Assembly (NCBI GenBank): GCA_036873755.1
Contig: JAVTVY010037272.1
Span: 1 to 64,000 of the forward strand
DNA: 64,000 nt
Reading direction: 5' to 3'
From: Hanleya hanleyi
Lineage: Eukaryota; Mollusca; Polyplacophora; Lepidopleurida; Hanleyidae
Shown: in pieces, positions 1 through 31,800 of the stretch
Layout: each line of letters starts with the position of its first letter
Numbering within the stretch: position 1 is the stretch's first letter
Made by a program: the position numbers and the translations under genes
Notes under the pieces: model-generated
Told to the model about the DNA's origin: nothing
Seen by the model: only the letters and a program-made list of their open reading frames with translations
Database searches by the model: none

Positions 1-332
1 CATAATCTATACGTTTTGGACGAGTCTCTTCACTCACCGTATACACGTACCTCAATGAAATGCCCGCTCCAAACCTAGACCAAAGACACGTACTTGGTCT
101 GTAGGCTGATTCCATTGGCTCTCTATTTTTTACTATAGTGCTCTTGCCTTCTAAACTTGATGGGTTACATTTTGACCCCATCCTACACCACTGATTTCAG
201 TTTGACTGAATCTTCACATTGGGCATTGATGCATTAGGAATAAAACACACAAGACAGGGTTTTTTGGTGAGATCTCATTTTTTTTTTTTTATTCAGTGAA
301 CAACAACAACGTGAGAACAACCACGTGAAAAC
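1..332. other. 3' flank of virus-like genes, non-coding
   Basis: No open frame of note. A T-run followed by TTTATT at about 288-293 reads as AATAAA plus a poly(A)-like run on the minus strand, so it is a plausible polyadenylation signal for the minus-strand protease transcript just to the right. Nothing else is recognised. Confidence 0.4.
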
Positions 333-334
333 TC

Positions 335-478
335 AAGCCCAGAACAAGGGGCTTGTCATTAACTGAAGCCCAGAACAAGGGGCTTGTACATTGAAGCCCA
401 GAACAAGGGGCTTGTACATTGAAGCCCAGAACAAGGGGCTTGTCATTAACTTAAGCCCAGAACGGGGCTTGTACATTG
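335..478. repeat. 28-31 bp tandem repeat at protease 3' end
   Basis: Five head-to-tail units share the core GCCCAGAACAAGGGGCTTGT, with spacers that alternate between CATTAACT and ACATTG types. The units are 26-31 bp long. The protease stop codon lies inside the last units, so the final residues of the protein are encoded by repeat sequence. Confidence 0.85.
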
Positions 479-924
479 AAATGATGGGAGGCCCAGTCAT
501 AGACGAGTACATCGCGGTCCTCGGCCTGGGAGTACTCGTCAAACATCTGTACGATAGTAGATAAGGGTCTTCCCCGGCATCGATGGTACAGGTAAAACAA
601 GCAATATTGTCCGCACACGCCACTGGTCAGGTTTTGCAACGTTTGACTGTTCCAACACCACGTCTCTGTGCCTTGATCCATGAAGTCTGTTAAATCGGGA
701 TGGAGGGGTGGCAGACCGTACGGGTCAAAGTATTCCCCCTGCTCTTCTGTCAAGTACACGGCCACCCAGCGTTCACCGGGTCGATCCATCGGGTCCGTGT
801 TGAGAACGTAAGCAGCCGGATACATACGGTCTAATGGAAACACATCTCGGGCGAACACCCCTTGAAAGACCCTACGTGTCTCTGGGTCATTCTCCAGCAC
901 GGTGGTTATCTGGTCTGCATCCAT
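451..924 (-). CDS. adenain-like cysteine protease, catalytic His replaced
   Basis: A 157-residue protein matching the adenovirus/Polinton maturation protease (C5 family), which in such viruses cleaves capsid precursors. Visible landmarks are a LNTDP..RPG lead-in, WVAVYL at 53-58, D67 in EYFDPYG, Q97 and C104 in CGQYCLFYL. The seven-residue Q-to-C spacing equals that of adenain Gln115/Cys122. The residue before WVAV, normally the catalytic His, is Arg52 (codon CGC), so the product is probably inactive. The start is the first ATG after the stop of the upstream capsid-like frame (TAA, one base, ATG). Capsid-then-protease order is typical of Polinton and adintovirus elements. The C-terminus runs into a tandem repeat. 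Confidence 0.8.
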   Translation of the reverse strand: MDADQITTVLENDPETRRVFQGVFARDVFPLDRMYPAAYVLNTDPMDRPGERWVAVYLTEEQGEYFDPYGLPPLHPDLTDFMDQGTETWCWNSQTLQNLTSGVCGQYCLFYLYHRCRGRPLSTIVQMFDEYSQAEDRDVLVYDWASHHFNVQAPFWA

Positions 925-925
925 G

Positions 926-1117
926 TTAGGTGGAGAAGTCACACAGCACGTTGCGCGCCTTGTCCACTTGAATGATGTTGTCAAACTCGGCGTAGCAGAT
1001 CACATTGACGGTGGTCGCCAGGGCTCGTGCAAAGTGGATTTCCAACCGTAAATTGCCTTGCTTGGTCAGGGCCAGCTGATGGTCGTTCTCTAAGGTGGGG
1101 GTCAGATCGAAACAGAA
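926..1117 (-). pseudogene. C-terminal tail of Polinton/adintovirus capsid-like protein
   Basis: About 63 codons remain open, ending in a conserved-looking tail (AEFDNIIQVD, then RNVLCDF and stop). This resembles the end of the transposon-derived F54H12.2-like proteins, which I take from memory to be Polinton/adintovirus hexon-type major capsid proteins. It lies immediately upstream of the protease on the same strand, the expected order. The frame is cut at about 1,118, where an inverted repeat begins; beyond that point the minus strand reads antisense of another gene. Everything N-terminal to the tail is missing. The capsid assignment is by order and resemblance, not by a full-length match. 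Confidence 0.55.
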
Positions 1118-1717
1118 GAGGAAGTGCATTTTAATGCGGCGGGCTTTCACGACAGACCCGGTAAGCATATTGCCATGACCTTAGACAACTGGCAAAAACT
1201 GGAGACCCTTGAATACGCCATCGATGCGGTGATTCGTGACCAGGGGAGTGATGAAGCGAAATTTCATGTGGGTGACGACATCTTTGTGAGCTGTGCTTAT
1301 TTCAATGACCAGCTCCTCGTCCACATCCGTAAGTGGCGAAAACGGTTAGATACCCAAGAGCTTGTTGCCTGTCCTCAGGGTGTCACTTTGAAATTAACAG
1401 CGTGGCGGAAGTTGCAGAGTCTCGCAAGTTCCATTCGTTCAGCTCTGACCTACCAGGTGTCTCACTATATTTACCTGAAATACATCGACACAGTCCTCCA
1501 TCTGATCAGACCTCAAATTCCACAGGACACTCGAGTACCTTCATACGCAATGATCACTGAAGCACTGGAGGCCGTGACGGAGCCGCAAATAGCCCTGGGA
1601 GTTGAAGCGGCCTGTCCTCCCAAAATTCCACGTGAGGACATTATCACGTACATTTATGTGCATCAAGGACGGAAAGATGATGATGAATTCAAACAAGTCT
1701 TGTTGAAGAATTATTGA
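1118..1717 (+). pseudogene. 5'-truncated copy of CARD-PC4-PC4 gene
   Basis: An open frame of about 197 residues nearly identical to residues 207-403 of the complete gene at 8,893-10,104. I see one substitution (Asp for Glu in the YAI-AV segment). It begins at the inverted-repeat edge inside the first PC4-like domain, so the CARD, the basic region and half of that domain are absent. The second PC4-like domain and the C-terminus are intact, ending in LLKNY and stop. No promoter is visible at its new 5' end, which abuts the broken capsid-like frame on the opposite strand. Probably not expressed as a functional protein. Confidence 0.8.
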
Positions 1718-2094
1718 ACAGAACTAGTGTTGAACAGAACATTTTACCATACACATTCATTGAAGTGGCTTGAGAGCGTATAATTGTATTTAAAATTCAC
1801 AGGTTATTTTTTTACTGTTAATTGTATTAAATGCAGAACTATTTAAAAATTCAGAGTTTTTTTTACTGTTAATTGTATTTAAAAATTCAATACTCAGATA
1901 TAATTGTATAAAAATTCAATACCCTTGTGAACACGTTCATTCTATTTGTGTTAATAAAAAATAGTATAAAATTAAAAAAAAAAATGCTTGTTAGTGTTCA
2001 TTCTTTAAATTATGCACAAGACCGATATGTCAACCTCACACCCAGTCCATTACATCGCCCTTCATGAATGCTTCACTTTGATACCGCACTCCAT
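1718..2094. other. AT-rich 3' flank with degenerate direct repeats
   Basis: Three related segments of about 60-70 bp contain ACTGTTAATTGTATT and AAAAATTCA motifs. AATAAA at about 1,953-1,958 is a candidate poly(A) signal for the truncated plus-strand frame. The same flank follows the full gene in the right arm, with TTTATT at about 8,652. Confidence 0.5.
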
Positions 2095-2816
2095 CCCATC
2101 GGTCCATTAGAGGCTTCCCTAGATGCCAAAACGTCTATTTTCATACCTTTGGGGGCCGCGCATGCGCAGAATCACTCTAATTCAACCCCATACTCAGTCC
2201 ATCACATGCTCCTTCACCTAAGCTTTAATTTGATACCTCTCTCGACCCACTACCTCCAAATTAAAAAAAGAGTGTATTTATACACTCCTGAAGGAGCTAA
2301 AAAATTTTTTTTGCAGGTAGAGGGTCGAGTGAGGTATCAAATTGAAGCTTAGGTGAAGGAGCATCTGATGGACTGAGTATGGGGTTGAATTAGGGTGATT
2401 GTGCGCATGCAAATACCCCATCGGTCCATTAGAGGCTTCCCTAGATGCCAAAACGTCTATTTTCACACCTTTGGGGGCCGCGCATGCGCAGAATCACTCT
2501 AATTCAATCCCATACTCAGTCCATCACATGCTCCTTCACCTAAGCTTTAATTTGATACCTCTCTCGACCCACTACCTCCAAATTAAAAAAAGAGTGTATT
2601 TATACACTCCTGAAGGAGCTAAAAAATTTTTTTTGCAGGTAGAGGGTCGAGTGAGGTATCAAATTGAAGCTTAGGTGAAGGAGCATCTGATGGACTGAGT
2701 ATGGGGTTGAATTAGGGTGATTGTGCGCATGCAAATACCCCATCGGTCCATTAGAGGCTTCCCTAGATGCCAAAACGTCTATTTTCATACCTTTGGGGGC
2801 CGCGCATGCGCAGAAT
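2095..2816. repeat. 322-bp palindromic tandem units with NRF1-like and octamer-like sites
   Basis: Two full units and one partial unit (about 2,095, 2,417 and 2,739). Each unit folds on itself: CTTCACCTAAGCTT with TTTGATACCT on one side and their complements on the other, around an AT-rich centre holding GAGTGTATTTATACACTC, which reads as a TATAAATA box on the minus strand. Each carries GCGCATGCGC (2,158-2,167; 2,480-2,489; 2,802-2,811), the NRF1 consensus. ATGCAAAT, the POU octamer, occurs at 2,407-2,414 and again in the next unit. Confidence 0.75.
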
Positions 2817-2829
2817 GTCGATATTTCAA

Positions 2830-4186
2830 TCTCCTACCCAGTCCATTAGATAGCCCTTCACCTCACCTTCAATTTGATACCTCACTCGACCCCATTGGTC
2901 CATTTTTAAAACAATTTTTTTTTGCTATAGGGTGATAATTTACACCCCTTTTTTTTCGCTAATTTCACTAATTTCAATATTTAGTTGTTAAAAAAACATA
3001 GAAAATGAAAAAGATTTTTTTTGCCTTCATTAATCTTTTTTTCCTTGTTTTTAAAATAAAAATTTTTTTTTGTCTTTTCTGCCTCCCTCCCCCCCCCCCC
3101 CCCCCGATGCCATACTGAACAATGATAAAAATATTAGCCCGACACACATGTATATATAGAGCGATTCTATATTTTTTCATTGTAAATACCCCTGGGAAAT
3201 TTAATTTGACACGGCAATTAATTTTTTAGACGCACCCCGAGTGCATCAATTAATAGTCTGGACTCATACGAAGATAAAAAATAAAACATTATCATGGTTA
3301 ACTTCGAATATCAAGTGCTCATCATTATCCAAACCAGGCCTACCGCCGCTGTAAAAATAGTCAAATAAGGAGCAAATAAAAGGATAACTCTTACCTCCCA
3401 AACGTAATAAGGGGGCAAAACTCTGCAGTGACAAACTGCATTTTGAACGACCGAAAAACATGAGGAGAGGAGTTTGACTCGAATAATGAACAGGGACGCA
3501 ACTCTGTTTTTGACCTCAATATTCAAGCGGGCCGGCCTAGAATATGCTCTCGCACCGTAAATCCAGGCCCTGTTTTGTTCATTTTTCTACAGTTCTCATG
3601 AACGAAACGATCTGGAATTTTCAGGACACACGTATCGAGTGATAACTGAACGACTTCTTATATTTTTAACGAAGAAAATCATTTTAACGTTGACTAGTAT
3701 TATTAAATACGAAACCTCTAGAGCTGTCATTTTACACAGCGCGTGACTTTGGAAAAATTCCATCGTTTGTGTTTTCTGACCGTCAACCCAAGCTCTCTGT
3801 TTTCTTCATTTTTCTACACTTCTTACGAACGAAACGGACTGGAATTTTCAGGGCACGCGTATCGAGTAATCAGGGCTAGACTGGCGCTATTTTTAATGCA
3901 GAAAATGAATTATTTTTTAATGGGTCGGGTTTTCTGTATTTTCGTACCGGCTCCAAAACCCACTAAAAAATTAAAATTCATGACGTAAACAAGAGCTAGA
4001 CGGTTGAAATTTTTAATACGAGCCCCTGATTTATGTGAGAAGAATTAGAACTAAAAATTCTACGGGGGACTGACAGTTATTGTACACTAAGAACCGTTTA
4101 TAAATTCAAAAGAAACACAACCCAGAGTTTATAGAATTTTTTCTATCTCCATTCTCGATTGCTATCGCACACGTCCGCGCGATGTG
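2830..4186. other. non-coding spacer with degraded direct repeat
   Basis: Poly-T and poly-C tracts occupy about 2,930-3,105. Two diverged copies of a segment of about 200 bp lie at about 3,575-3,760 and 3,795-3,990, sharing CATTTTTCTAC, GAACGAAACG, CTGGAATTTTCAGG and CGTATCGAGT. No convincing gene is seen. Confidence 0.5.
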
Positions 4187-4194
4187 CATAAATA
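4187..4194 (+). promoter_or_regulatory. TATA-like box for proline-rich gene
   Basis: CATAAATA lies about 50 bases before the ATG at 4,244, the spacing expected for a short 5' UTR. It is weaker than the TATAAATA boxes of the two RING genes in the same segment. Confidence 0.4.
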
Positions 4195-4243
4195 CTCGCC
4201 CCTTTGGAATAGCTTTACCATACAAATTTTTCCAACGAACAAG

Positions 4244-4834
4244 ATGACTTCACGTAACAAAATTTCTCGACGTAAAAGAGAGGCGGTGAGACAAGATATA
4301 AAAAGATTCTGGCACATGGAATTCGAGAGGTGGGAGCGGACGCTGAAAGGAGAGGAGGGAGCTGCAATAGCGATGGCCAACAATGTGAGGGCGTTGTTGG
4401 TCGCGGCCCACGGAACGATGAACGAAAACAACTGGTTTCATCTCTTAAAAAAAGTGATGGGTGACAACATTCGTTACCGCTCTGCCCGGCCTGATGGACC
4501 ACGAACAACAACGCCCCCCGACGCTCCTTTCCCTCTGGAAGACCTGCCAGCTCCGATATTTCCCGATATACCACCGCCACCTCCAGCCATGGCTATTCCA
4601 CGAGGAAATTTTTTAGAAGAGACACCAATCTACATTTCCTCAGATGATGAAGAAGACAGACCGCTCATCATTTGGGAGGAGCCCCCACAAACACCCAGGA
4701 ATGCAGCGGATATATTTCTCGACGGACTACCCCTGACTCCAGCCATTCCGGGCGTATTATTGGACGGGCTACCCCTGACGCCAGCCATTCCGGACCCCTA
4801 TGGGTACTTGACGGCGAATAAACCATCTCAGTGA
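4244..4834 (+). CDS. small proline-rich viral-type protein with SUMO-interaction-like motifs
   Basis: 196 residues, family not recognised. Residues 1-80 are basic and helical (KISRRKREAVRQDIKRF). Residues 88-120 are proline-rich. Residues 129-137 read IYISSDDEE, and 141-146 read LIIWEE: hydrophobic cores followed by acid, the layout of SUMO-interacting motifs. The C-terminus repeats GLPLTPAIP twice. The first ATG after the TATA-like box is used. AATAAA lies about 50 bases after the stop, in a small hairpin. It shares the inter-arm segment with two RING-finger genes, so a role with them in manipulating host SUMO/ubiquitin pathways is a guess from context. A host origin cannot be excluded. Confidence 0.6.
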   Translation: MTSRNKISRRKREAVRQDIKRFWHMEFERWERTLKGEEGAAIAMANNVRALLVAAHGTMNENNWFHLLKKVMGDNIRYRSARPDGPRTTTPPDAPFPLEDLPAPIFPDIPPPPPAMAIPRGNFLEETPIYISSDDEEDRPLIIWEEPPQTPRNAADIFLDGLPLTPAIPGVLLDGLPLTPAIPDPYGYLTANKPSQ

Positions 4835-5443
4835 GCCGCCAGAGGACTACATTACGGGAGAGTATACAGGTAAACTCTCCACCTGAATAAAAACAGGTTA
4901 AAAAATAATAAAACGTTCTTTTAAGAACGTCCTGATTAACAACAGGGTTAACAATATCAAATGTTCTTTTCAGAACAACTTTATCCTTCGAAAGAGGACT
5001 TCTGTAACTAGCACATGAATTTCAAAGCATTACAGCCCTGTCCCCTTTTTAATTTTTTTATTAGCCATGCATTACGAAAAAAATATACAATCCCAGGCCG
5101 ATATCCAAAAAGTTCTTATGAGAACTAATCTCTTATATATATACACAGAATTTTTTCGCTTCCATTTAATTAATTGCCCGAAGCATAACGGACTATATTT
5201 TTTTATTGTAATATGTCCGACGATAATAACGGACATTTATTTTTAATATATGTCAACCCGAATAAATTAACGGGGTTGAAATTTATGGTAATATGTCCGA
5301 CGATAACGGACATTTATTTTAATATATTTCAACCCGAATAAATTAACGGGGTTGAAATTTATTATAGCACAGGGATAGGGGAAATCTGTTTTTAATTTTT
5401 AGGGGGGGTTATTAAAAATAACCCCGTTGGTATATGTAATAAA
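4835..5443. promoter_or_regulatory. cluster of small hairpins between convergent genes, some looping AATAAA
   Basis: Short inverted repeats follow one another: ACCTG-AATAAAA-ACAGGT (about 4,881), GTTCTTTTAAGAAC, GTTCTTTTCAGAAC, GTTCTTATGAGAAC, then two tandem copies (about 5,210-5,360) of a block holding TGTCCG..CGGACA and AACCCG-AATAAATTA-ACGGGGTT hairpins. GGGGTTATTAAAAATAACCCC lies near 5,403-5,425. Convergent genes end on both sides, so these fit a shared 3'-end or polyadenylation zone. Hairpins seen; function inferred. Confidence 0.55.
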
Positions 5444-6205
5444 TTACATTGTTGAGAGGGATTGTTGTTGACGCTGTGTTCTTCTATCAGCGCAAATAGG
5501 ACATGTCAAAGGCAGCAATTGACACATAACAGGCTTGTTGGGTCGGACACACGTAGGTATTTGAGCGAGGCGGTGAATACAATTTTCGCACAATGCTTGA
5601 TGGTTGCAAGGAAAAATTGCATATTTCGAAAACGGACTTCTACATTCCACGCAAGGTATATACAAGTCACTTTGGCGTTCTGTATTACAGCCGAATGGTG
5701 TTGTTGTGGTAGTCCAAACATAATGGATCTGGTCATGTATTTGTTTTCGCTGTTTTATTCTATGGGTCCTGGTATCTTTGCGGTTTTTCCGCTCCTGTCG
5801 TCTCTCTGTACGCACTCTCACATCTTTTTTTTTTTTTTTTACATCTTTTACCGCCTCTTCCGTATCACAGGTTCCATCTTGTTCGTCGTGTTGGGTTTTC
5901 AACCCCTTTTCTAACAGCTCGTCTAAGTCAAAACTTGAGTATAGGTCTGGGTAGATGGGTGCCTGGGCGATGAAGTTATGCAGTTGAGGTGTTTCCGGGC
6001 GATCTTGACAATGGTCTGTACTTGGCGCAGGGTCGTTCCCGGATTCAGGTGTAGGTGAAAATAAATCTTTCATAATATCTTGTAGCCAGGGCTCATCATG
6101 CACCAAATTAAGCATAGTACCGGAAAGTTGTTGTTCTTCATTTGCATCAATGGTCAACAAGTCTGATGTGTCAATATCCATAATGTCAGCCAGGGGTAGT
6201 TCCAT
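5444..6205 (-). CDS. RING-finger protein with acidic N-terminus and bZIP-like basic region
   Basis: 253 residues. A C-terminal C3HC4 RING has C185, C188, C200, H202, C206, C209, C235 and C238, suggesting ubiquitin E3 ligase activity. Residues 1-115 are acidic with DELLE/DDE-like patches. Residues 122-155 are strongly basic and contain an N-x7-R spacing (N141, R149) like bZIP DNA-contact regions, but no leucine zipper follows. The poly-T tract at about 5,826-5,840 encodes a Lys run. The start is the first ATG downstream of a TATAAATA box with about 47 bases between; an in-frame ATG 10 codons upstream would fall too close to the box. Resembles regulatory RING proteins of large DNA viruses; no specific family identified. 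Confidence 0.7.
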   Translation of the reverse strand: MELPLADIMDIDTSDLLTIDANEEQQLSGTMLNLVHDEPWLQDIMKDLFSPTPESGNDPAPSTDHCQDRPETPQLHNFIAQAPIYPDLYSSFDLDELLEKGLKTQHDEQDGTCDTEEAVKDVKKKKKDVRVRTERRQERKNRKDTRTHRIKQRKQIHDQIHYVWTTTTTPFGCNTERQSDLYIPCVECRSPFSKYAIFPCNHQALCENCIHRLAQIPTCVRPNKPVMCQLLPLTCPICADRRTQRQQQSLSTM

Positions 6206-6251
6206 GACTGAGCAATCAGATGAATTGTGAATCATTAAAAAAATTAATGGG

Positions 6252-6259
6252 TATTTATA
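6252..6259 (-). promoter_or_regulatory. TATA box for minus-strand RING gene
   Basis: TATTTATA on the plus strand reads TATAAATA on the minus strand, 47 bases before the chosen ATG at 6,205. It decides the start in favour of the downstream ATG. Confidence 0.6.
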
Positions 6260-6701
6260 GGGTAAACATGCGGACGTCAGCGAGGGCACTGTAGCTGTGT
6301 CGCTCAACAAAATATATTTGTGTTTCTTTGACAAGTTTAAACGCCTGTAATTTTTACAAGAACTATCAGTGCACTTATAAAATTTATTGCAACTTGAAGT
6401 GAGGCCATTCATAGTCTATTATTTAAAAAAATTAGCACTCTAACGCTAAACTAGGTGATTATTTATTAATTTTTAGCGATTTTAAATAGTAAGATTAGTG
6501 TACGGAGGTATGAAAGACCACGTATATTGGAAATAAAATTCATTTTTTCTGGCTAATAATACGTGTAGACTATGGGGTTACAGTCTTATAAATAGTTCCC
6601 TAAAAATGGTAACGGATTTATCGAAAAAAATAGGACATTTTTATGGCTTGGGTAACACAGCGCTATACAGCGGGCAAAAACATATTCTTGCACTGACTGA
6701 C
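6260..6701. other. intergenic spacer between divergent RING genes
   Basis: The minus-strand frame stays open upstream to about 6,412, but it lies before the TATA box and is taken as non-coding. The rest is AT-rich. No further site is recognised until the YY1-like repeats begin. Confidence 0.4.
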
Positions 6702-6822
6702 ACAGGCCGCCATCTTGTCCCACCTCCCACAACATAGACACACACACAAACAGACCGCCATCTTGTTCCACCTCCCACAATATATACACAAACAGACCGC
6801 CATGTTGTCCCACCTCCCACTT
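6702..6822. promoter_or_regulatory. three YY1-like tandem repeats upstream of second RING gene
   Basis: Three units carry GCCATCTTGTCCCACCTCCCAC or close variants, spaced by CA-rich linkers. The first reads GCCGCCATCTTG, whose complement CAAGATGGCGGC is the YY1 consensus; the others have one change. They end about 15 bases before the TATA box at 6,836. The same unit is repeated 14 times upstream of the CARD gene. Confidence 0.75.
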
Positions 6823-6835
6823 CAGCCCACTTGCC

Positions 6836-6843
6836 TATAAATA
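6836..6843 (+). promoter_or_regulatory. TATA box for plus-strand RING gene
   Basis: TATAAATA lies 44 bases before the ATG at 6,880, just after the YY1-like repeats. Its spacing matches the box of the divergent RING gene. Confidence 0.65.
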
Positions 6844-6879
6844 GCCTGTAAATTGACATTTTATTTACAAAATAGAAGC

Positions 6880-7620
6880 ATGAGTTCCAGAAGAAGTAGA
6901 ACACCTCTATTTACTCATCATCCGCCAAGAGATCCGAGAAATGGTGCTTCAGAACACAGAGAAATCATTAGCAGTGAGCAGGACGGAGGAATAACCCTCA
7001 TCACCAGTTTTCAGCGGGTTATTGAAGACGAGGCCAGGTTAATACAAAGCACACAAGAATTGACACAACTCAGGCAAGCGGTAATAGCGGAAGAAGATGA
7101 CCGATTGCGACGGGAAAGTCAAGACCAAAACCCAGAAATAAACAGGATGGAGACCCTACAAGAACAAGACGAAACTATTACTGATGGAGATGAAGACACA
7201 CTTCCATGGTTAAATAGTAGACCTGCAATAACGCCAAGTATAACGACGACGCCTTGTGAAACTCCATCCACTTCGGAAACACAACCAGGCTCTTTGGATG
7301 AAGCCGAGATAACCCGCCTCAACACAGTGATTCAGACGATGGAAGACAACAATAATAATATGTGTGCAGAGATTAATAAACTGACCAAAAAACTGCATAA
7401 AGAGGACAAAAAAACCAAATGTAGCATCTGCACTGATCAAGAAAGCCAATATGCTGTACTCCCGTGTGGACACTTGTGTGTGTGTCAAGAGTGTTGGGTA
7501 ACTCTCACCTGTGCGGGAGATGGATGTCATTGCCTTGAAGCCGGAGAAAACCATCTCAAAGTAAAGTGCCCCATATGCCGGAAACACGTGGGAGCCGTTA
7601 AACGGATTTACCGTGCATAA
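6880..7620 (+). CDS. RING-finger protein with coiled coil (C-terminal RING)
   Basis: 246 residues. Residues 1-30 are basic and disordered; 45-80 are helical and charged. Residues 140-178 have a heptad-like pattern (EITRLNTVIQTM, then NKLTKKL) suggesting a coiled coil. A C-terminal RING follows: C181, C184, C196, H198, C200/C202, C205, then C230 and C233 in CPIC, with a longer than usual Cys-rich loop (CAGDGCHC) between. C-terminal RINGs of this type occur in IAP-like E3 ligases of viruses and hosts; no BIR is present. An in-frame extension upstream of this ATG lacks ATG. AATAAA occurs at about 7,866. Ubiquitin ligase role is inferred from the RING. Confidence 0.75.
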   Translation: MSSRRSRTPLFTHHPPRDPRNGASEHREIISSEQDGGITLITSFQRVIEDEARLIQSTQELTQLRQAVIAEEDDRLRRESQDQNPEINRMETLQEQDETITDGDEDTLPWLNSRPAITPSITTTPCETPSTSETQPGSLDEAEITRLNTVIQTMEDNNNNMCAEINKLTKKLHKEDKKTKCSICTDQESQYAVLPCGHLCVCQECWVTLTCAGDGCHCLEAGENHLKVKCPICRKHVGAVKRIYRA

Positions 7621-7789
7621 TAAGTGTGGTCGTGTAACACTTCAAAGGCCCTTTTCAGGGCCAACCATCTTTCCCGGAAGAGAACTTCAACAAAAGCACA
7701 AAAATTAACATCAGACTCCATCATCCTTTCCCCCAAAAAAATCAAAGAAAAATTTTTTTTTACTATTTTTTTGAAATTATTGAAAAAAA
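7621..7789. other. 3' flank of RING gene
   Basis: A/T-rich, with homopolymer runs and no further open frame of interest. The inverted-repeat similarity fades in near its end. Confidence 0.35.
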
Positions 7790-9494
7790 GGGGAAACATT
7801 GCAGTGGGGGGACATGGGGAGGGGGGAGGGAAATGGAATAGCCAAAAAAAATTTTTTTATCATTGAATAAAATGTAAAAAAAAGATTCATGGAGCCAAAA
7901 AAAATCTTTTTCATTTTATATGTTTTTTTAACAATTAAATATTGAAATTAAGAAAGGGGAGGGGTAAATTGGAGGGGGGGACAGGGGAGTAAGCAAGGTG
8001 GATGGAATAGCCCCAATTTTTTCTTTAATAATGAACCCATGGGGTCGAGTAAGGTATCAAATTGAAGCTGAGGTGAAGGGGCATGTAATGGGCTGGATGT
8101 GGGATTGAACTATCGGCATTCTGCGCATGCGCGGCCCCCTAAGGTATGAAAATAGACGTTTTGGCATCTAGGGAAGCCCCTAATGGACCGATGGGGTATT
8201 TGCATGCGCACAATCACCCTAATTCAACCCCATACTCAGTCCATCAGATGCTCCTTCACCTAAGCTTCAATTTGATACCTCACTCGACCCTCTACCTGCA
8301 AAAAATTTTTTTAGCTCCTTCAGGAGTGTATAAATACACTCTTTTTTTAATTTGGAGGTAGTGGGTCGAGAGAGGTATCAAATTAAAGCTTAGGTGAAGG
8401 AGCATGTGATGGACTGAGTATGGGGTTGAATTAGGGTGATTCTGCGCATGCGCGGCCCCCCTAAGGTATGAAAATAGACGTTTTGGCATCTAGGGAAGCC
8501 CCTAATGGACCGATGGGATGGAGTGAGGTATCAAAGTGAAGCATTCATGAAGGGCGATGTAATGGACTGGGTGTGAGATTGACATATCGGTCTTGTGCAT
8601 AATTTAAAAAAAGAACACTAACAAGCATTTTTTTTTTAATTTTATACTATTTTTATTAACACAAATAGAATGAACGTGTTCACAAGGGTATTGAATTTTT
8701 ATACAATTATATCTGAGTATTGAATATTTAAATACAATTAACAGTAAAAAAAACTCTGAATTTTTAAATAGTTCTGCATTTAATACAATTAACAGTAAAA
8801 AAATAACCTGTGAATTTTAAATACAATTATACGCTCTCAAGCCACTTCAATGAATGTGTATGGTAAAATGTTCTGTTCAACACTAGTTCTGTTCAATAAT
8901 TCTTCAACAAGACTTGTTTGAATTCATCATCATCTTTCCGTCCTTGATGCACATAAATGTACGTGATAATGTCCTCACGTGGAATTTTGGGAGGACAGGC
9001 CGCTTCAACTCCCAGGGCTATTTGCGGCTCCGTCACGGCCTCCAGTGCTTCAGTGATCATTGCGTATGAAGGTACTCGAGTGTCCTGTGGAATTTGAGGT
9101 CTGATCAGATGGAGGACTGTGTCGATGTATTTCAGGTAAATATAGTGAGACACCTGGTAGGTCAGAGCTGAACGAATGGAACTTGCGAGACTCTGCAACT
9201 TCCGCCACGCTGTTAATTTCAAAGTGACACCCTGAGGACAGGCAACAAGCTCTTGGGTATCTAACCGTTTTCGCCATTTACGGATGTGGACGAGGAGCTG
9301 GTCATTGAAATAAGCACAGCTCACAAAGATGTCGTCACCCACATGAAATTTCGCTTCATCACTCCCCTGGTCACGAATCACCGCTTCGATGGCGTATTCA
9401 AGGGTCTCCAGTTTTTGCCAGTTGTCTAAGGTCATGGCAATATGCTTACCGGGTCTGTCGTGAAAGCCCGCCGCATTAAAATGCACTTCCTCAT
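7790..9494. repeat. right arm of long inverted repeat
   Basis: Reverse complement of 1,118-3,090, shorter because it holds one fewer 322-bp palindromic unit. NRF1-like GCGCATGCGC sites are at 8,123-8,132 and 8,444-8,453, and ATTTGCAT (octamer complement) is near 8,197. Unlike the left arm, its outer edge continues smoothly into the complete CARD-PC4-PC4 gene, so this side looks like the original. Confidence 0.85.
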
Positions 9495-10104
9495 CTTTCA
9501 CACTCACTGTTAAATAAGGTGAGAGCTCCCAAATGTCGGTGTGAGCTACCTGGTAGGCCTGTTGGATGAGGTTATTAATCTCCTGGACAGACATAGGAAG
9601 TTCTACCACCATCTGTTTTTTCTCAGGCGCTTGCGGGGGTACTACTGGCTCAATCACTGACTCAGGTATTTCTAACGGTGTTAGTCGAGGCCGTTTAGAT
9701 CGTCCACCACGTTTAGCAGGTGTAGTACTCTCTGGGGTAGTACTCTCTGGGGTAGTGTGTGTACGTTTGCTAGCTGTACGCTGTTCGGTAGTGGTATCCA
9801 TCGCTAAGATATCTTCATCTTGTATAACGTCGGCTTCAAGTAGATCCGCTAGTTCTCCATTTCCCGTGATCTTCAACGCCGCCACGAAGGCTAGAAATGC
9901 ATAGGGGCTAGAGCGCAGTACACCATCGATGAGGGCTGTGTTTTGTGCTGAAGAAGTTTTCTCAGCCATGATTTCGTCGACACGCTGTTGGTGGAGTATG
10001 TTTCCATCCATAAGGATATAACATATTTCTTCTACACGCTGCATCTCATCAATAAGACGAACACGGTACTTTGCAAGCCTCACTAAAAATGATGATGACG
10101 CCAT
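8893..10104 (-). CDS. CARD-PC4-PC4 domain protein of virus-like element
   Basis: 403 residues. Residues 6-91 match a caspase-recruitment (CARD) death fold: a KYRVRLIDEM first helix, ILMDGNIL, RVDEIMAE, then SSPYAFLAFVAALKITG and LADLL, the usual order and spacing. Residues 105-145 are Ser/Thr/Pro-rich with a basic nuclear-localisation-like stretch (KRGGRSKRPRL). Two PC4/SUB1-like single-strand DNA-binding domains follow: about 190-243 (PGKHIAMTLDNWQKL) and 253-309 (FHVGDDIFVS, LLVHIRKW, GVTLKLTAWRKL). The start is the first ATG after a TATAAAA box at 10,341-10,347; the frame has only GTG further upstream. I infer a nuclear regulator that may also engage host death-domain signalling. I know of no such domain combination. 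Confidence 0.75.
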   Translation of the reverse strand: MASSSFLVRLAKYRVRLIDEMQRVEEICYILMDGNILHQQRVDEIMAEKTSSAQNTALIDGVLRSSPYAFLAFVAALKITGNGELADLLEADVIQDEDILAMDTTTEQRTASKRTHTTPESTTPESTTPAKRGGRSKRPRLTPLEIPESVIEPVVPPQAPEKKQMVVELPMSVQEINNLIQQAYQVAHTDIWELSPYLTVSVKDEEVHFNAAGFHDRPGKHIAMTLDNWQKLETLEYAIEAVIRDQGSDEAKFHVGDDIFVSCAYFNDQLLVHIRKWRKRLDTQELVACPQGVTLKLTAWRKLQSLASSIRSALTYQVSHYIYLKYIDTVLHLIRPQIPQDTRVPSYAMITEALEAVTEPQIALGVEAACPPKIPREDIITYIYVHQGRKDDDEFKQVLLKNY

Positions 10105-10222
10105 GACTAGGGGCTCAGGTGGATGAAAAACTGCTACGGAGTAATAGTCTGTTGAATTTGCACTGGTAAAATCGAAAAAAGTAATAGGGATGGCCACAGC
10201 TGATACAAGTAGGCTGGATGAC

Positions 10223-10347: not shown

Positions 10348-10361
10348 CGTTTTTCTACAGG

Positions 10362-10925
10362 CCACCATCTTGTCCCACCTCCCACACACTAAAACCGACC
10401 GCCATCTTATCCCACCTCCCACACAACACACAAATACGGGCCGCCATCTTATCCCACCTCCCACACAACACACAAATACGGGCCGCCATCTTGTCCCACC
10501 TCCCACACAACACACAAATACGGGCCGCCATCTTGTCCCACCTCCCACACAACACACTAAAACGGACCGCCATCTTGTCCCACCTCCCACACGACACTAA
10601 AACAGGCCGCCATCTTGTCCCACCTCCCACACGACACTAAAACTCGCCGCCATCTTGTCCCACCTCCCACACGACACTAAAACCGGCCGCCATCTTGTCC
10701 CACCTCCCACACAACACACAAAAACACACAAATACGGCCCGCCATCTTGTCCCACCTCCCACACAACACACTAAAACCAACCGCCATCTTGTCCCACCTC
10801 CCACACGACACTAAAACAGGCCGCCATCTTGTCCCACCTCCCACACGACACTAAAACCGGCCGCCATCTTGTCCCACCTCCCACACGACACTAAAACCAG
10901 CCGCCATCTTGTCCCACCTCCCACA
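10362..10925. promoter_or_regulatory. 14-copy tandem array of YY1-like sites
   Basis: Fourteen units of about 37-53 bp share GCCGCCATCTTGTCCCACC plus TCCCACAC, with linkers such as ACTAAAAC or AACACACAAATACGG. GCCGCCATCTTG is the reverse complement of the YY1 consensus CAAGATGGCGGC. Two units have CTTAT instead of CTTGT, and the first has GCCACC. The array lies immediately upstream of the TATA box of the CARD gene, so it is a candidate enhancer. Binding is inferred. Confidence 0.8.
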
Positions 10926-21167: not shown

Positions 21168-22995
21168 AATATAATAATAATAATAAAACTTTATTTCAAG
21201 AGGGTAAAGTACAAATGTACGCTCAGTCAACAAACAATGCTGATCTTCCCTGAGGCCCTCACACACAAAACATCCACACATCATTCATATCACACTCAAA
21301 TCGAAGCAAAAAGGATTACAGTCATATGAACAATAGAAAACTATATACTTAAACAATTTGGTATGCATCACTGTGAACACAATACAGGCAAAGGAGCATA
21401 ATTATGCAATCTAGGGATTAAGAAGATAATTGTTGCACAAACAAGGTTTTAAACCTCTGAACAGAGGAAGCATTTTGTGTATTGGCTGGCAGGGAATTCC
21501 ACAGGACCGGTCCTGAATATAATAGGCTTTTCTTAAACAGCTCAGTATGGGGGAAGGGAACTTTGAGAACGTTTGTAGCAGAAGATCTCAGAGTTCTTTG
21601 ACCAATGTTATCAGTGAATAGATCTTTCATGTAATCTGGGTAATACCCATTGAGTGATTTGTATACAGTTACACCTTTATTGAGTTTAACCAAATTAAAT
21701 ACTGTTTGCCACTGTAGCATGTTAAAAAGTTGAGCAGAAGGAGTATGTTTTGTTTTGTCTAAGATCAAACGTGCTGCAGTCTTTTGCAGTTTATGTATCC
21801 TGTTCAGTAGTTGGTTTGAGCAATTACCCCAGATACTGATACAGTTATTAATATGGGGGGATATGTATCCATTGTAGAATAAAAGTCGCATATTCTGTGG
21901 GATTAGACTCTTATGCTTCCTCAGAACAGATAGTAATCTAGAAACAGTAGTACAAATATGATCTACATGAGATTGCCAAGACAGAGTTTTATCTAAATGT
22001 AGACCAAGCAATTTTTGATGGTCAACTCTTTCAATACGGGTGCCATTGATTGTGACATTGAAAGATTCCTTACCACATTGCTTTAACTTTTGGGATGACC
22101 CTATTAACATCGCTTTAGTTTTACTTGGATTAATAATCATTTTGTTTTCAGAGCACCATGTTTTTGCCTTAATCATATTTTTGTTAACTTTTGCTTCAAG
22201 TACTTTTAATGATTTTGAAGATGTGTGAATAGTGGTGTCATCAGCATATGTCTCAACGTCACAATCACTAATGTGCAAAACAAAATCATTGAGAAACCAA
22301 ATAAACAGTAGCGGACCAAGTATGGACCCTTGGGGTACACCAGTTTTAACAGTCAATGGCTCAGATAAAGTTTTACCAAGTGATACACATTGAAATCGAG
22401 AATTCAAGTAAGACGACATCCATTTTAGTGCTTTTTGATCAAAACCATAAATCTTAAGCTTTTTTAACAGGAGGTTGTGATCTATCAGATGGAATGCTTT
22501 TCGGAAGTCAATCATGACTGAACCAACAATTTCTTCATTGTCAAGTGCATGTAGCCATTTTTCAGTGAGTCTTGTTAAAGCAGTGAAACAGGAGTGTTGA
22601 GGCCTGAAACCTGATTGGGAGTCACTGAGCAAATCATGGGATGTTATATACGTATATAACCAGTCATGCACATGTCTTTCTAGAATTTTAGAGAGTATTG
22701 GTAAAATAGATATTGGACGGTAATTCTCAGCTTTGTTTACAGACCCATTTTTGTGAAGCGGATATACTTTAGATTTTTTCCAGTTGTTTGGGAATATGCC
22801 AGTAGAAATACTTAAGTTTAGTATTTTTGTCACATGTGGGGTGATTACATCTGCACATATTTTGAGGAATTTTGGACTCAAGGTATCAAGACCTGTACTT
22901 TTAGTGATATCAAGTGTAGATAAGTAGCTGAAAACATAGTTTTCTGATACTGGTGGGATGGAAAATGTATTTCCTGGGGTACATACATCATATGT
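21168..22995 (-). mobile_element. 5'-truncated non-LTR retrotransposon (CR1/L2/jockey-like)
   Basis: Minus-strand element. It ends in AATAAA (about 21,190-21,195 reversed) followed by a (TTA)n tail at about 21,168-21,189, the microsatellite-type tail of CR1/L2-like LINEs. The 5' side stops at about 22,995 against a CAACACC minisatellite, so ORF1, the endonuclease and the start of ORF2 are missing. Confidence 0.8.
21418..22995 (-). pseudogene. LINE ORF2 reverse transcriptase fragment
   Basis: About 525 codons open to the natural stop. RT blocks in order: KSTGLDTLSPKFLK, YRPISILPILSKILE, SQSGFRPQHSC, IDFRKAF, GVPQGSILGPLLF, YADDTTIH, then the thumb region (LGLHLDKTLSW) and a C-terminal RIHKLQKTAARLI segment. 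The catalytic YADD is intact. LINEs copy their own RNA at a nicked target. No endonuclease precedes it, so the copy is 5'-truncated and immobile by itself. The open frame suggests a fairly recent insertion. Confidence 0.88.
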
Positions 22996-23280
22996 CCCCA
23001 ACACCCTTTATTGGTGTTGGCCAACACCATTAATTGGTGTTGAACAAGTATTAGTACTTATCAGCTAAAACCAAAATATGGCGATGAGCCATTTCAACAC
23101 TCTATGTTGGTGTTGACCAACGCCATTATTTGATGTACAACTGGCCTCAACACCAGTTTTAGTGTTCACATTGGTCAACACCAACACTTTAAGGTGTTGG
23201 CCAGCCTTCAGCACCAAAAAAGGGTGTTGGGCCAACACTACTTTGGGCCAACACCATTGTTCTGGCCATGCAGGTATCAA
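22996..23280. repeat. GGTGTTGG/CCAACACC minisatellite
   Basis: Repeated GGTGTTGGCCAACACC-like words in both orientations, spaced by short A/T-rich linkers. Many self-complementary cores. It adjoins the truncated 5' edge of the LINE. Confidence 0.8.
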
Positions 23281-28812: not shown

Positions 28813-31800
28813 GTAAGGAAGGGCTTTCAAAGTTCAGTAAATATTTTCGCATTAATATATGAATACGCATGCACATAACATTTCCCAGTCGGAGAAACCA
28901 TGATGTGCGCAGTCAAGTTGTCAAGTTGTATGTACTATAGCGTAAAGCACTTTCTTCTAACAATTCCTTCTGGTCGCCAAAGTACAGAACCATATCGGAT
29001 GTTGTACTGTGGAAATCAGATCCAAACCTAAGGACAATTAGAGTGCAATATATATCTCGGTATGATGACAATCATATATCTCTGTTTCGGCAATTTGGAT
29101 TTTCTATTTGGGTTCCCTTTCGAATCTCCTCACAGGTACCAATGGCAAGTTGCTTCGGCGATTTGAAACATTTGGTGGCCGACCTGATAAAACCGGCTAA
29201 GGACGACATAGGACGAGTGAGGGCAATATATAGGTGGATTACAGAACAGGATGTCAGCGTAATGAGCTTTACTCACACGGAGAACGCGAGATCAGCAGCT
29301 CACTATCTGGCCCAAGTGAAGGAGAACAAAGGTGGTTACCCCGAGCTGTTTCAACAAATGTGCAGGTAAGGTACCGACAGACAGACGGATAGACGGACGG
29401 AGAGATAAAGAAATATTACGCAGTGTGAATATTGGTGATTCTAGAAGAAATCTTAGGTTCACGATCATTGGTCCAGGGGTATTATCATCGAATGTTACTG
29501 ACTATTGCATGTCGAACTAGATTAACAAATTTCTGACATGTTTGTTTCATCTCCGTTGTTATATTTGTCGTTCTGAACGCTTAATCCATGTACTATATGA
29601 CACATGTGATCATGAGAATAATGTTAATACATAAACAAGTATGATTCGGCAAAACGATTTCATATAACGATATTACCCCGTTCTCCAGGGGCAACCATTT
29701 TTCCTATCCATCTTGTGCGTTTTGTTCAGCGCCGTACGATTTCGGCCTCGCTATATTTCATGTCTTGTAATTTGTTTTTTCATTGTTTCTCTTATATACA
29801 GACGCGCCAAAATACAATGTCGCACCGTGCCCGGTTTTGTAAAAGGTTTCAGGTATGAGCCTGATAGCGATGTCACGGAACGAGCTGGCGGATGGTCCGC
29901 AGTGTATGTATCAAATTGCTGGCGATTGGTCGACTGCAACTGGGGCGCAAGTCACGTGTCCAGTGGAGACTCTCGTGAGTGGTCAGCACGTGTCGGAAGC
30001 TCCAGCGAAGATACAGACACGAGTGCCCCAACCAAAATGTCTTTCGGTTACGAAGGATATTATTTTCTGACCGATCCACATCACCTTATCTATAGTCATT
30101 ACCCATCGGACGAGAAATGGCAACTTCTAGCACGCCCAGTCAGCCTTGAAGAATTTAAAGACATGGCTTATCTTAAACCAGATTTCTTTACCTCCGGTTT
30201 CGACATACACAGTCATCCGAAGAGTATTATTGAATCGGAAAGTGGAGAGTGCCTTATAACCCTCCGGCTACCTGCGTATGCTTGCCATCGGTTTATATAC
30301 CGACTACACAGATCAAAGAACAGCGGAAACACAGCGAGTGTCGATAATATCGGCCTGGAGAGATACGTCTTTCTAGACATGGCAAGGGATGAGTCTTTAT
30401 TGCGTGCTAAAATAAATTTGCCGTGTGCGGGAAAATACAAACTGAAACTATTCAGTAAGGACACCACAAACCCAGAGAATGTTTTTTCGAGTATTTGCTC
30501 GTATATTATCATCTTTGACAAATCCCCAAGCGAATCGGTTCGACCATATCCACCAAATGCCAGGTGTGAGTGGGGTCCTGGAGCTGACATGCAAATGCTC
30601 GGTGTTGTGCCAGAATCACACCCATCTGGTGTGATAGAGGCAGAAGATGGAGAGGTCGAAGTTACGTTTATCCTAAACCAGAATGTTGAATTCCTGCACA
30701 AATTGCTTCACAAGGGGAGAGAAGAATTGACGTACAGAGATTTTGTGTTTCACAGGTTTGAAGACAATCGGGTTATTTTTAAGGTCCGCCTTCCAGAACC
30801 TGGACGATACACATTGAGTTTATATGCTAAGAAAGCAGAAACAGAGGGGCCTTTTCCAAACGTCTGCAACTACCTCATCGAAAGTGAGGAAAGGTCGGCA
30901 AACACATTGCCATTCCCTGAGATATACAACGGGCGAGTCGGTCCCAACTTGTACTTCCACGAATTAGGAATAAGTTCGCTCGGCAATGCTTCGGGGTTCT
31001 TTGTTTGCAGAGAATCAGGCGAGCTTGCGTTGAAATTCCAATTTTCTCGTTTGGTCTCCTTCCTTTCAACACTCCGTCTCCAAGTGGGTAAGGGGTACAA
31101 GGATTTCAACGACTACACAAGTTTCACAATAGAAGGAGATGTGATAACGTTTTACCTTGTTTTCCCCGAACCTGGAATGTATCACTTGACGCTATTCGCT
31201 AGAGAACCTTCTTCATCGAACAGTTACCCTCCTATCTACAACGGTTTAATCCAGGCGGATTTTCCCAAAGTTGGTGCGATTCCATTCCCCAAAATCTTTT
31301 CGAAATGGAAAGATAGTTATCAAATGTTGGAACCCACTGTTGGATATCTTCCTACAAATGAGAAAATTCGTTTCGTGGCTAAGATACCCGATGCTGAAGG
31401 AGTGGCCATCATTGGAACCACTTGGGTTCACCTTCAATTGAACAACAAAGACTTGTGGGATGGTATCCTTGAGACTGGGGATATGGAATGTGACCTTAAA
31501 TTTTCCGCCAGTATATCACCAGAAACCGATAAATACGCCTGCCTTCAACTGTTCAAGGTAGTTTTCCTGTGTTCATAATTCTTCGATCTTTAATCGTACC
31601 AATTTAATTCATTTATGCCTTTCACCAAAATTGATTTTATGAACATGATATCAAATCACAATAGCAAGCGTCAGATGTGACATTCAATATTCAGCCGTCG
31701 TCCATAAAAGAATTTTCGCGTAATAATCGACAGATCTATTTCGTATGACAGCACCAATTCCGAATGTGTATTAAATACAAAACAATAATAAACACAAATA

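Follow-up and report, generated by a model that had tools for sequence, protein, structure and literature searches.

A CARD joined to paired PC4-like domains in a virus-like stretch of chiton DNA, and proteins of the same layout in mussels

Viral CARD genes, MOSUB proteins and bivalve PC4 genes

MOSUB genes in adintoviruses and CARD genes in viruses are already known kinds. The MOSUB proteins of a Branchiostoma (lancelet) adintovirus (A0A5H3CIS2) and of a "Bos-associated insect" adintovirus (A0A5H3CT48), both in BFVD, contain a PC4/SUB1-type module that aligns over 175-189 columns with the protein described here; they are 197-203 aa long, whereas our protein has 403 aa and carries a CARD, a basic linker, and a helical tail. 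Adintoviruses also possess a virion-maturation protease (PMC8363768; for this and every other PMC source below, our statements are limited to the accessible part of the text). Among viral CARD genes, E10 of equine herpesvirus 2 is the second viral structural match to our protein (E 2.1e-4), and the Cod iridovirus CARD matches it with a TM-score of 0.79 to the target. The grouper iridovirus CARD protein, according to the accessible part of its description, is 91 aa long and, unlike our protein, has no room for a DNA-binding module; the presence of a PC4 pair likewise sets our protein apart from viral CARD-only decoys, in which the CARD stands alone. The ranavirus CARD protein lowers caspase-8 and caspase-9 activity and accumulates in the nucleus (PMC4457926), and a bivalve iridovirus has a predicted CARD+RHIM gene resembling bivalve sequences (PMC12452177).

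The cellular proteins human PC4 and Pur-alpha (repeats I-II) lack a CARD, and our protein is only 5-8% identical to Pur-alpha. PC4 genes are expanded in bivalves, with as many as 18 genes in M. galloprovincialis and 15 genes in C. farreri; three of the five bay scallop AiPC4s share with our protein the possession of two PC4 domains, and two of the five are encoded by a single exon, but the partner domain reported for them is zf-PARP, not CARD (PMC9223095). In the accessible text of that paper the whole word "CARD" occurs in one reference title only, and the words PC4, CARD, MOSUB, and SUB1 are absent from the accessible text of an adintovirus-related preprint (PMC11071296). Nor was the union of CARD and PC4 found in the literature searched, which covers few subscription papers. 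Since precomputed labels place both CARD and PC4 on mussel proteins, the architecture is visible in protein databases, yet as far as we have searched it is undescribed.

The CARD-PC4-PC4 gene and its mussel relatives

The gene is an intronless open reading frame of 403 aa without internal stops, on the minus strand at 8893..10104 of a 64,000-nucleotide stretch of DNA from the chiton Hanleya hanleyi (contig JAVTVY010037272.1, hereafter the window). The layout read from the bare sequence in the initial annotation, a CARD followed by a basic stretch and two PC4 segments, is confirmed as real. In order, and all on the minus strand, the protein consists of a CARD (residues 10-90; 9835..10077); a basic stretch, PAKRGGRSKRPR, that may act as a nuclear import signal (residues 129-140; 9685..9720); a degenerate PC4 repeat 1 (about residues 191-245; 9370..9534); PC4 domain 2 (about residues 251-317; 9154..9354); and a helical C-terminal tail (residues 318-403; 8896..9153). 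The last 84 residues have no match to the profile of relatives, their score being reached by 1228 of 2000 shuffles.

The N-terminal CARD is borne out both by Pfam (PF00619, residues 10-90, E 9.9e-10, 38.7 bits against a cut-off of 23.9) and by a six-helix death fold predicted with high confidence; together with the structural neighbours, these results rule out a chance hydrophobic pattern. Compared with solved chains, the CARD family profile matches CED-3 (1.3e-7), a de novo design (3.8e-7), RAIDD (4.7e-7), and caspase-9 (6.5e-7) ahead of Apaf-1 (1.2e-4), and an initiator-caspase/Apaf-1-type CARD appears, from these sequence comparisons, to be the best explanation. R14 aligns with an arginine in helix 1 of caspase-9 that we take to be R13 of the Apaf-1 interface; the basic residues of caspase-9 helix 4, presumably also interface residues, are not retained at the aligned positions (hand mapping). 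All 50 structural matches listed for the whole model fall on the CARD alone, among them the filament-forming CARDs of NLRC4, CARD8, and MAVS, and the PC4 part was for this reason folded separately.

With the window protein as the only query, one of 5.8 billion proteins was matched at a threshold of E 1e-3: P0002, a 272 aa protein of Mytilus coruscus (E 8.1e-9) that is 38% identical over 16% of the query and for which precomputed labels give both CARD and PC4. A two-sequence profile search then gave 16 proteins including P0002, all with E <= 6.4e-16. Half of the 16 are assigned to species: three distinct sequences from M. coruscus, three distinct sequences from M. edulis, and one each from M. 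trossulus and M. californianus. By Pfam, 12 of the 16 (P0002-P0011, P0013, and P0015) contain both CARD and PC4, with two PC4 stretches in P0002-P0011 (10/12) and one in P0013 and P0015; P0012 has a CARD without PC4, and P0014, P0016, and P0017 lack a CARD but show PC4 in two stretches, P0014 and P0016 being perhaps incomplete at 169-170 aa. Counting the window protein (P0001), CARD is found in 14 of 17 and PC4 in 16 of 17. The 12 relatives with both CARD and PC4 have the same domain order as the window protein; they are, however, mostly about 270 aa long with a short linker, compared with 403 aa, and P0002 is 38% identical to the window protein over 66 aa of PC4 domain 2 and 26% over 90 aa of the CARD. 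An invariant C-x5-H-x8-C-x2-C motif, putatively a zinc-binding tail, is found in six aligned relatives (P0002, P0007, P0010, P0011, P0016, and P0017) and is absent from the window protein, whose tail is helical.

Pfam PC4 (PF02229) matches a single stretch of the window protein, residues 257-305, with 23.6 bits (E 3.7e-5), below the cut-off of 25, whereas individual scans place the PC4-bearing relatives above it. A PC4 profile was built on 12 of the 16 relatives (P0005, P0012, P0013, and P0015 were left out), and the separate fold of the PC4 part used the same 12 relatives plus the window piece. In the predicted structure a beta sheet and C-terminal helix superpose on PC4. Both of the PC4 segments named in the initial annotation are supported by the relatives' profile and the fold, and a failure of both to match PC4 is ruled out by profile and structure comparison. 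By hand mapping, PC4 domain 2 keeps the equivalents of the human PC4 single-stranded DNA contacts F77 and R86 (F266 and R275) and lacks those of W89, P98, R100, and K101; P-G-K is retained in PC4 repeat 1 (residues 218-220). The lancelet adintovirus MOSUB ranks first in the viral structure library, with both the whole model (E 2.0e-4) and the PC4 part (E 6.7e-5), and the "Bos-associated insect" MOSUB ranks twelfth with the PC4 part (E 1.6e-2); these matches have 12-14% identity and an overall rmsd of 11-13, and it is by structure only that a MOSUB/PC4 gene of an adintovirus or Polinton element can be recognized here.

Nearly the whole length of the two MOSUB entries aligns with the PC4 part, so that MOSUB apparently needs no CARD, and the CARD might be an oligomerization module: polymerized PC4 pairs would bind viral single-stranded DNA or promoters, and cell death would not be a target. 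The position of the basic nuclear-type stretch between the CARD and the PC4 domains, and the filament CARDs among the structural matches listed, are consistent with such a role; however, the natural solved CARDs closest by profile (CED-3, RAIDD, and caspase-9) are not filament nucleators, and the experimentally tested ranavirus CARD acts on death signaling (PMC4457926). We regard oligomerization as rather unlikely.

The mussel relatives raise the further question of whether CARD-PC4-PC4 proteins are host genes of the expanded bivalve PC4 family, for example stress or DNA-damage regulators that trigger caspases, with the window copy merely lying beside viral debris. Their presence in four Mytilus species, with several distinct sequences in both M. 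coruscus and M. edulis, would fit, as would the bivalve PC4 expansion with its two-PC4 and single-exon members in bay scallop (PMC9223095); but the window ORF lies within an ORF-dense stretch that includes a viral-type protease ORF (below), and its best viral match is an adintovirus MOSUB; we think a host origin of this kind unlikely. A bolder reading, quite improbable in our judgment, makes the CARD-PC4-PC4 proteins of invertebrates the equivalent of AIM2-type nucleic-acid sensors: the PC4 pair would cluster the protein on single-stranded DNA, the clustered CARDs would recruit initiator caspases, and the viral copy would jam or redirect the sensor. If this were true, mussels would keep several sensors, the element would bear a diverged copy with an extra linker and a new tail, and host and virus would be contesting one protein architecture. 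Because mussels have proteins with this layout, the idea that bivalves possess a protein which binds DNA and recruits caspases can be tested directly.

The virus-like stretch and a possible role for the protein

ORFs of at least 150 aa starting with ATG cover a fraction of 0.469 of positions 450-10104 compared with 0.068 of 10105-64000; six occur in 1-10200 (one of them a truncated gene copy in the left arm of an inverted repeat, see below), and none in 40 mononucleotide shuffles. At 451..924 on the minus strand lies a 157 aa adenain-like cysteine protease ORF of viral type. It has three relatives (E 1.8e-46, 3.4e-29, and 5.2e-22), none of which matches Pfam when scanned singly, and itself scores below the cut-off for Peptidase_C5 (0.032); the profile of the ORF and its relatives reaches the African swine fever virus protease (S273R) structure with E 3.7e-9, and the adenovirus protease weakly (E 1.2). 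An adenain-type protease as expected of an adintovirus or Polinton element is accordingly present, a kind that fits such proteases generally and not adintoviruses alone. In the window, the protease ORF has G-E-R-W at the place of the G-E-H-W shared by its relatives P0018 and P0020 (the stretch is missing from the third, P0019), and the substituted arginine aligns with a histidine of the solved viral protease that we take to be catalytic; the window copy of the protease is therefore probably inactive, judging from the alignment.

Between the protease and CARD-PC4 genes lie two RING-type ORFs, one RING-finger-like (322 aa, 5444..6412, minus strand; 21.3 bits, below the Pfam cut-off of 27) and one a RING finger (246 aa from its ATG, 6880..7620, plus strand; 35.5 bits, above it), together with a 196 aa ORF (4244..4834, plus strand) that matched no family in Pfam or PHROGs. 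Pfam scans of 13 ORFs showed no polymerase (PolB), integrase, FtsK-type packaging ATPase, or capsid gene, in a window that begins inside the element; the element runs past its left edge. A PHROGs scan of three proteins and a tblastn search against phage records gave no match, and scans of IMG/VR returned no locus, with one stretch confirmed for the protease. That the gene belongs to a virus-like element, as the initial annotation held, is nonetheless backed by the protease ORF, the ORF density, and MOSUB as the best viral structural match.

Could the stretch simply be a decayed, nonfunctional remnant of an insertion too young for its CARD-PC4 ORF to have been interrupted? The inverted duplication with its truncated CARD-PC4 copy in the left arm and the arginine at the presumed catalytic position of the protease, compared with P0018 and P0020, would both be expected of a remnant; on the other side are 403 open codons, compared with fewer than 150 in all 40 shuffles, and the high-confidence predicted CARD fold, each still compatible with recent death of the element. 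We consider a mere remnant highly unlikely, and note that the window copy of the element may have decayed.

What has been computed is a CARD fold, a paired PC4 module, a viral-type protease ORF nearby, and the same architecture in mussels. Our favored explanation, to which we would give slightly less than an even chance, is that an endogenous adintovirus/Polinton-type element encodes a MOSUB-like paired PC4/SUB1-like module ahead of which a CARD and a basic nuclear-import-type linker have been added, and that the CARD is a decoy. Specifically, i) the PC4 pair would close into one intramolecular pseudo-dimer; ii) the pseudo-dimer would bind single-stranded viral DNA at nuclear sites of replication or transcription; iii) the partners bound by the CARD would be CARD proteins of the host, similar to Apaf-1 or the initiator caspases; and iv) because no protease or ATPase domain follows it, the CARD might act as a dominant-negative decoy that restrains the death of the host cell during replication of the element. 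The caspase/CED-3-like character of the CARD and the effect of the ranavirus CARD on caspase-8 and caspase-9 in the accessible report argue for a decoy; the lost DNA-contact positions in PC4 domain 2, the lost helix-4 basic residues of caspase-9 type, and a nuclear-type signal that would be odd in a decoy of a cytosolic complex argue against it. The RING-type ORFs lying between the protease and CARD-PC4 genes count in favor of the explanation as well, and the CARD+RHIM gene of the bivalve iridovirus is a further precedent. Against adintovirus ancestry stand the missing polymerase, integrase, packaging ATPase, and capsid genes among the 13 ORFs of a window that begins inside the element, the Pfam scores of PC4 domain 2 and the protease below curated cut-offs, the low identity to MOSUB, and the lack of an IMG/VR locus. 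The initial annotation suggested that the protein could couple transcription or replication with interference in host death signaling; such a coupling is something that we infer.

A CARD fused to a DNA-binding-type module would, within one polypeptide, connect what a virus does with its DNA to the machinery of host cell death, a combination that, going by their descriptions, is not present in the iridovirus CARD-only proteins, in E10, or in the predicted CARD+RHIM protein of the bivalve iridovirus. We wish to propose CARD-PC4-PC4 as a candidate host-interaction gene for invertebrate adintovirus-type elements.

Repeats and flanking DNA

An inverted repeat with a left arm at 1114..2570 (plus strand) and a right arm at 8042..9496 (minus strand) is 97.7% identical over 1458 columns, with 4 differences in the outer 847. 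We have not adopted it as the terminal repeats of the element, because the outer end of its right arm lies within the CARD-PC4 gene, so that the left arm holds a second, truncated copy of that gene's 3′ portion (1114..1717, plus strand). The repeat brackets a center of about 5 kb, and the CARD-PC4 gene is complete at only one of its two ends, as happens to genes that straddle inverted-repeat boundaries in some viral and plastid genomes. The arrangement here could also be a rearrangement arising in assembly or on integration. Direct repeats of 322 bp, themselves partly inverted-repeat, occur within both arms (2095-2892 and 8135-8517).

Upstream of the CARD-PC4 gene, at 10360..10925, a repeat of about 40 bp containing CCGCCATCTTG is present in 13.7 copies, and three similar copies lie upstream of the 6880-7620 RING gene (6696-6821). 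Thirteen of the 16 exact CCGCCATCTTG matches in the window fall in these two arrays, compared with a chance expectation of 0.05 for the whole window. We take the motif to be the YY1 consensus, and the arrays are possible promoters or enhancers.

Farther to the right, the flanking DNA contains a tandem duplication: eight near-identical 126 aa ORFs are spaced 2.3-3.8 kb apart between 37408 and 57497, interspersed with tandem repeats of 448 bp. The one ORF of the eight that was scanned has no significant Pfam family. A gene of animal type at 29043-31578 encodes KY-like immunoglobulin-like domains (E 1.4e-64), the ORF preceding the KY-like one showing a weak match to a transglutaminase core (E 0.04), and a reverse transcriptase ORF (RVT_1, E 4.2e-35) is located at 21418-23004.
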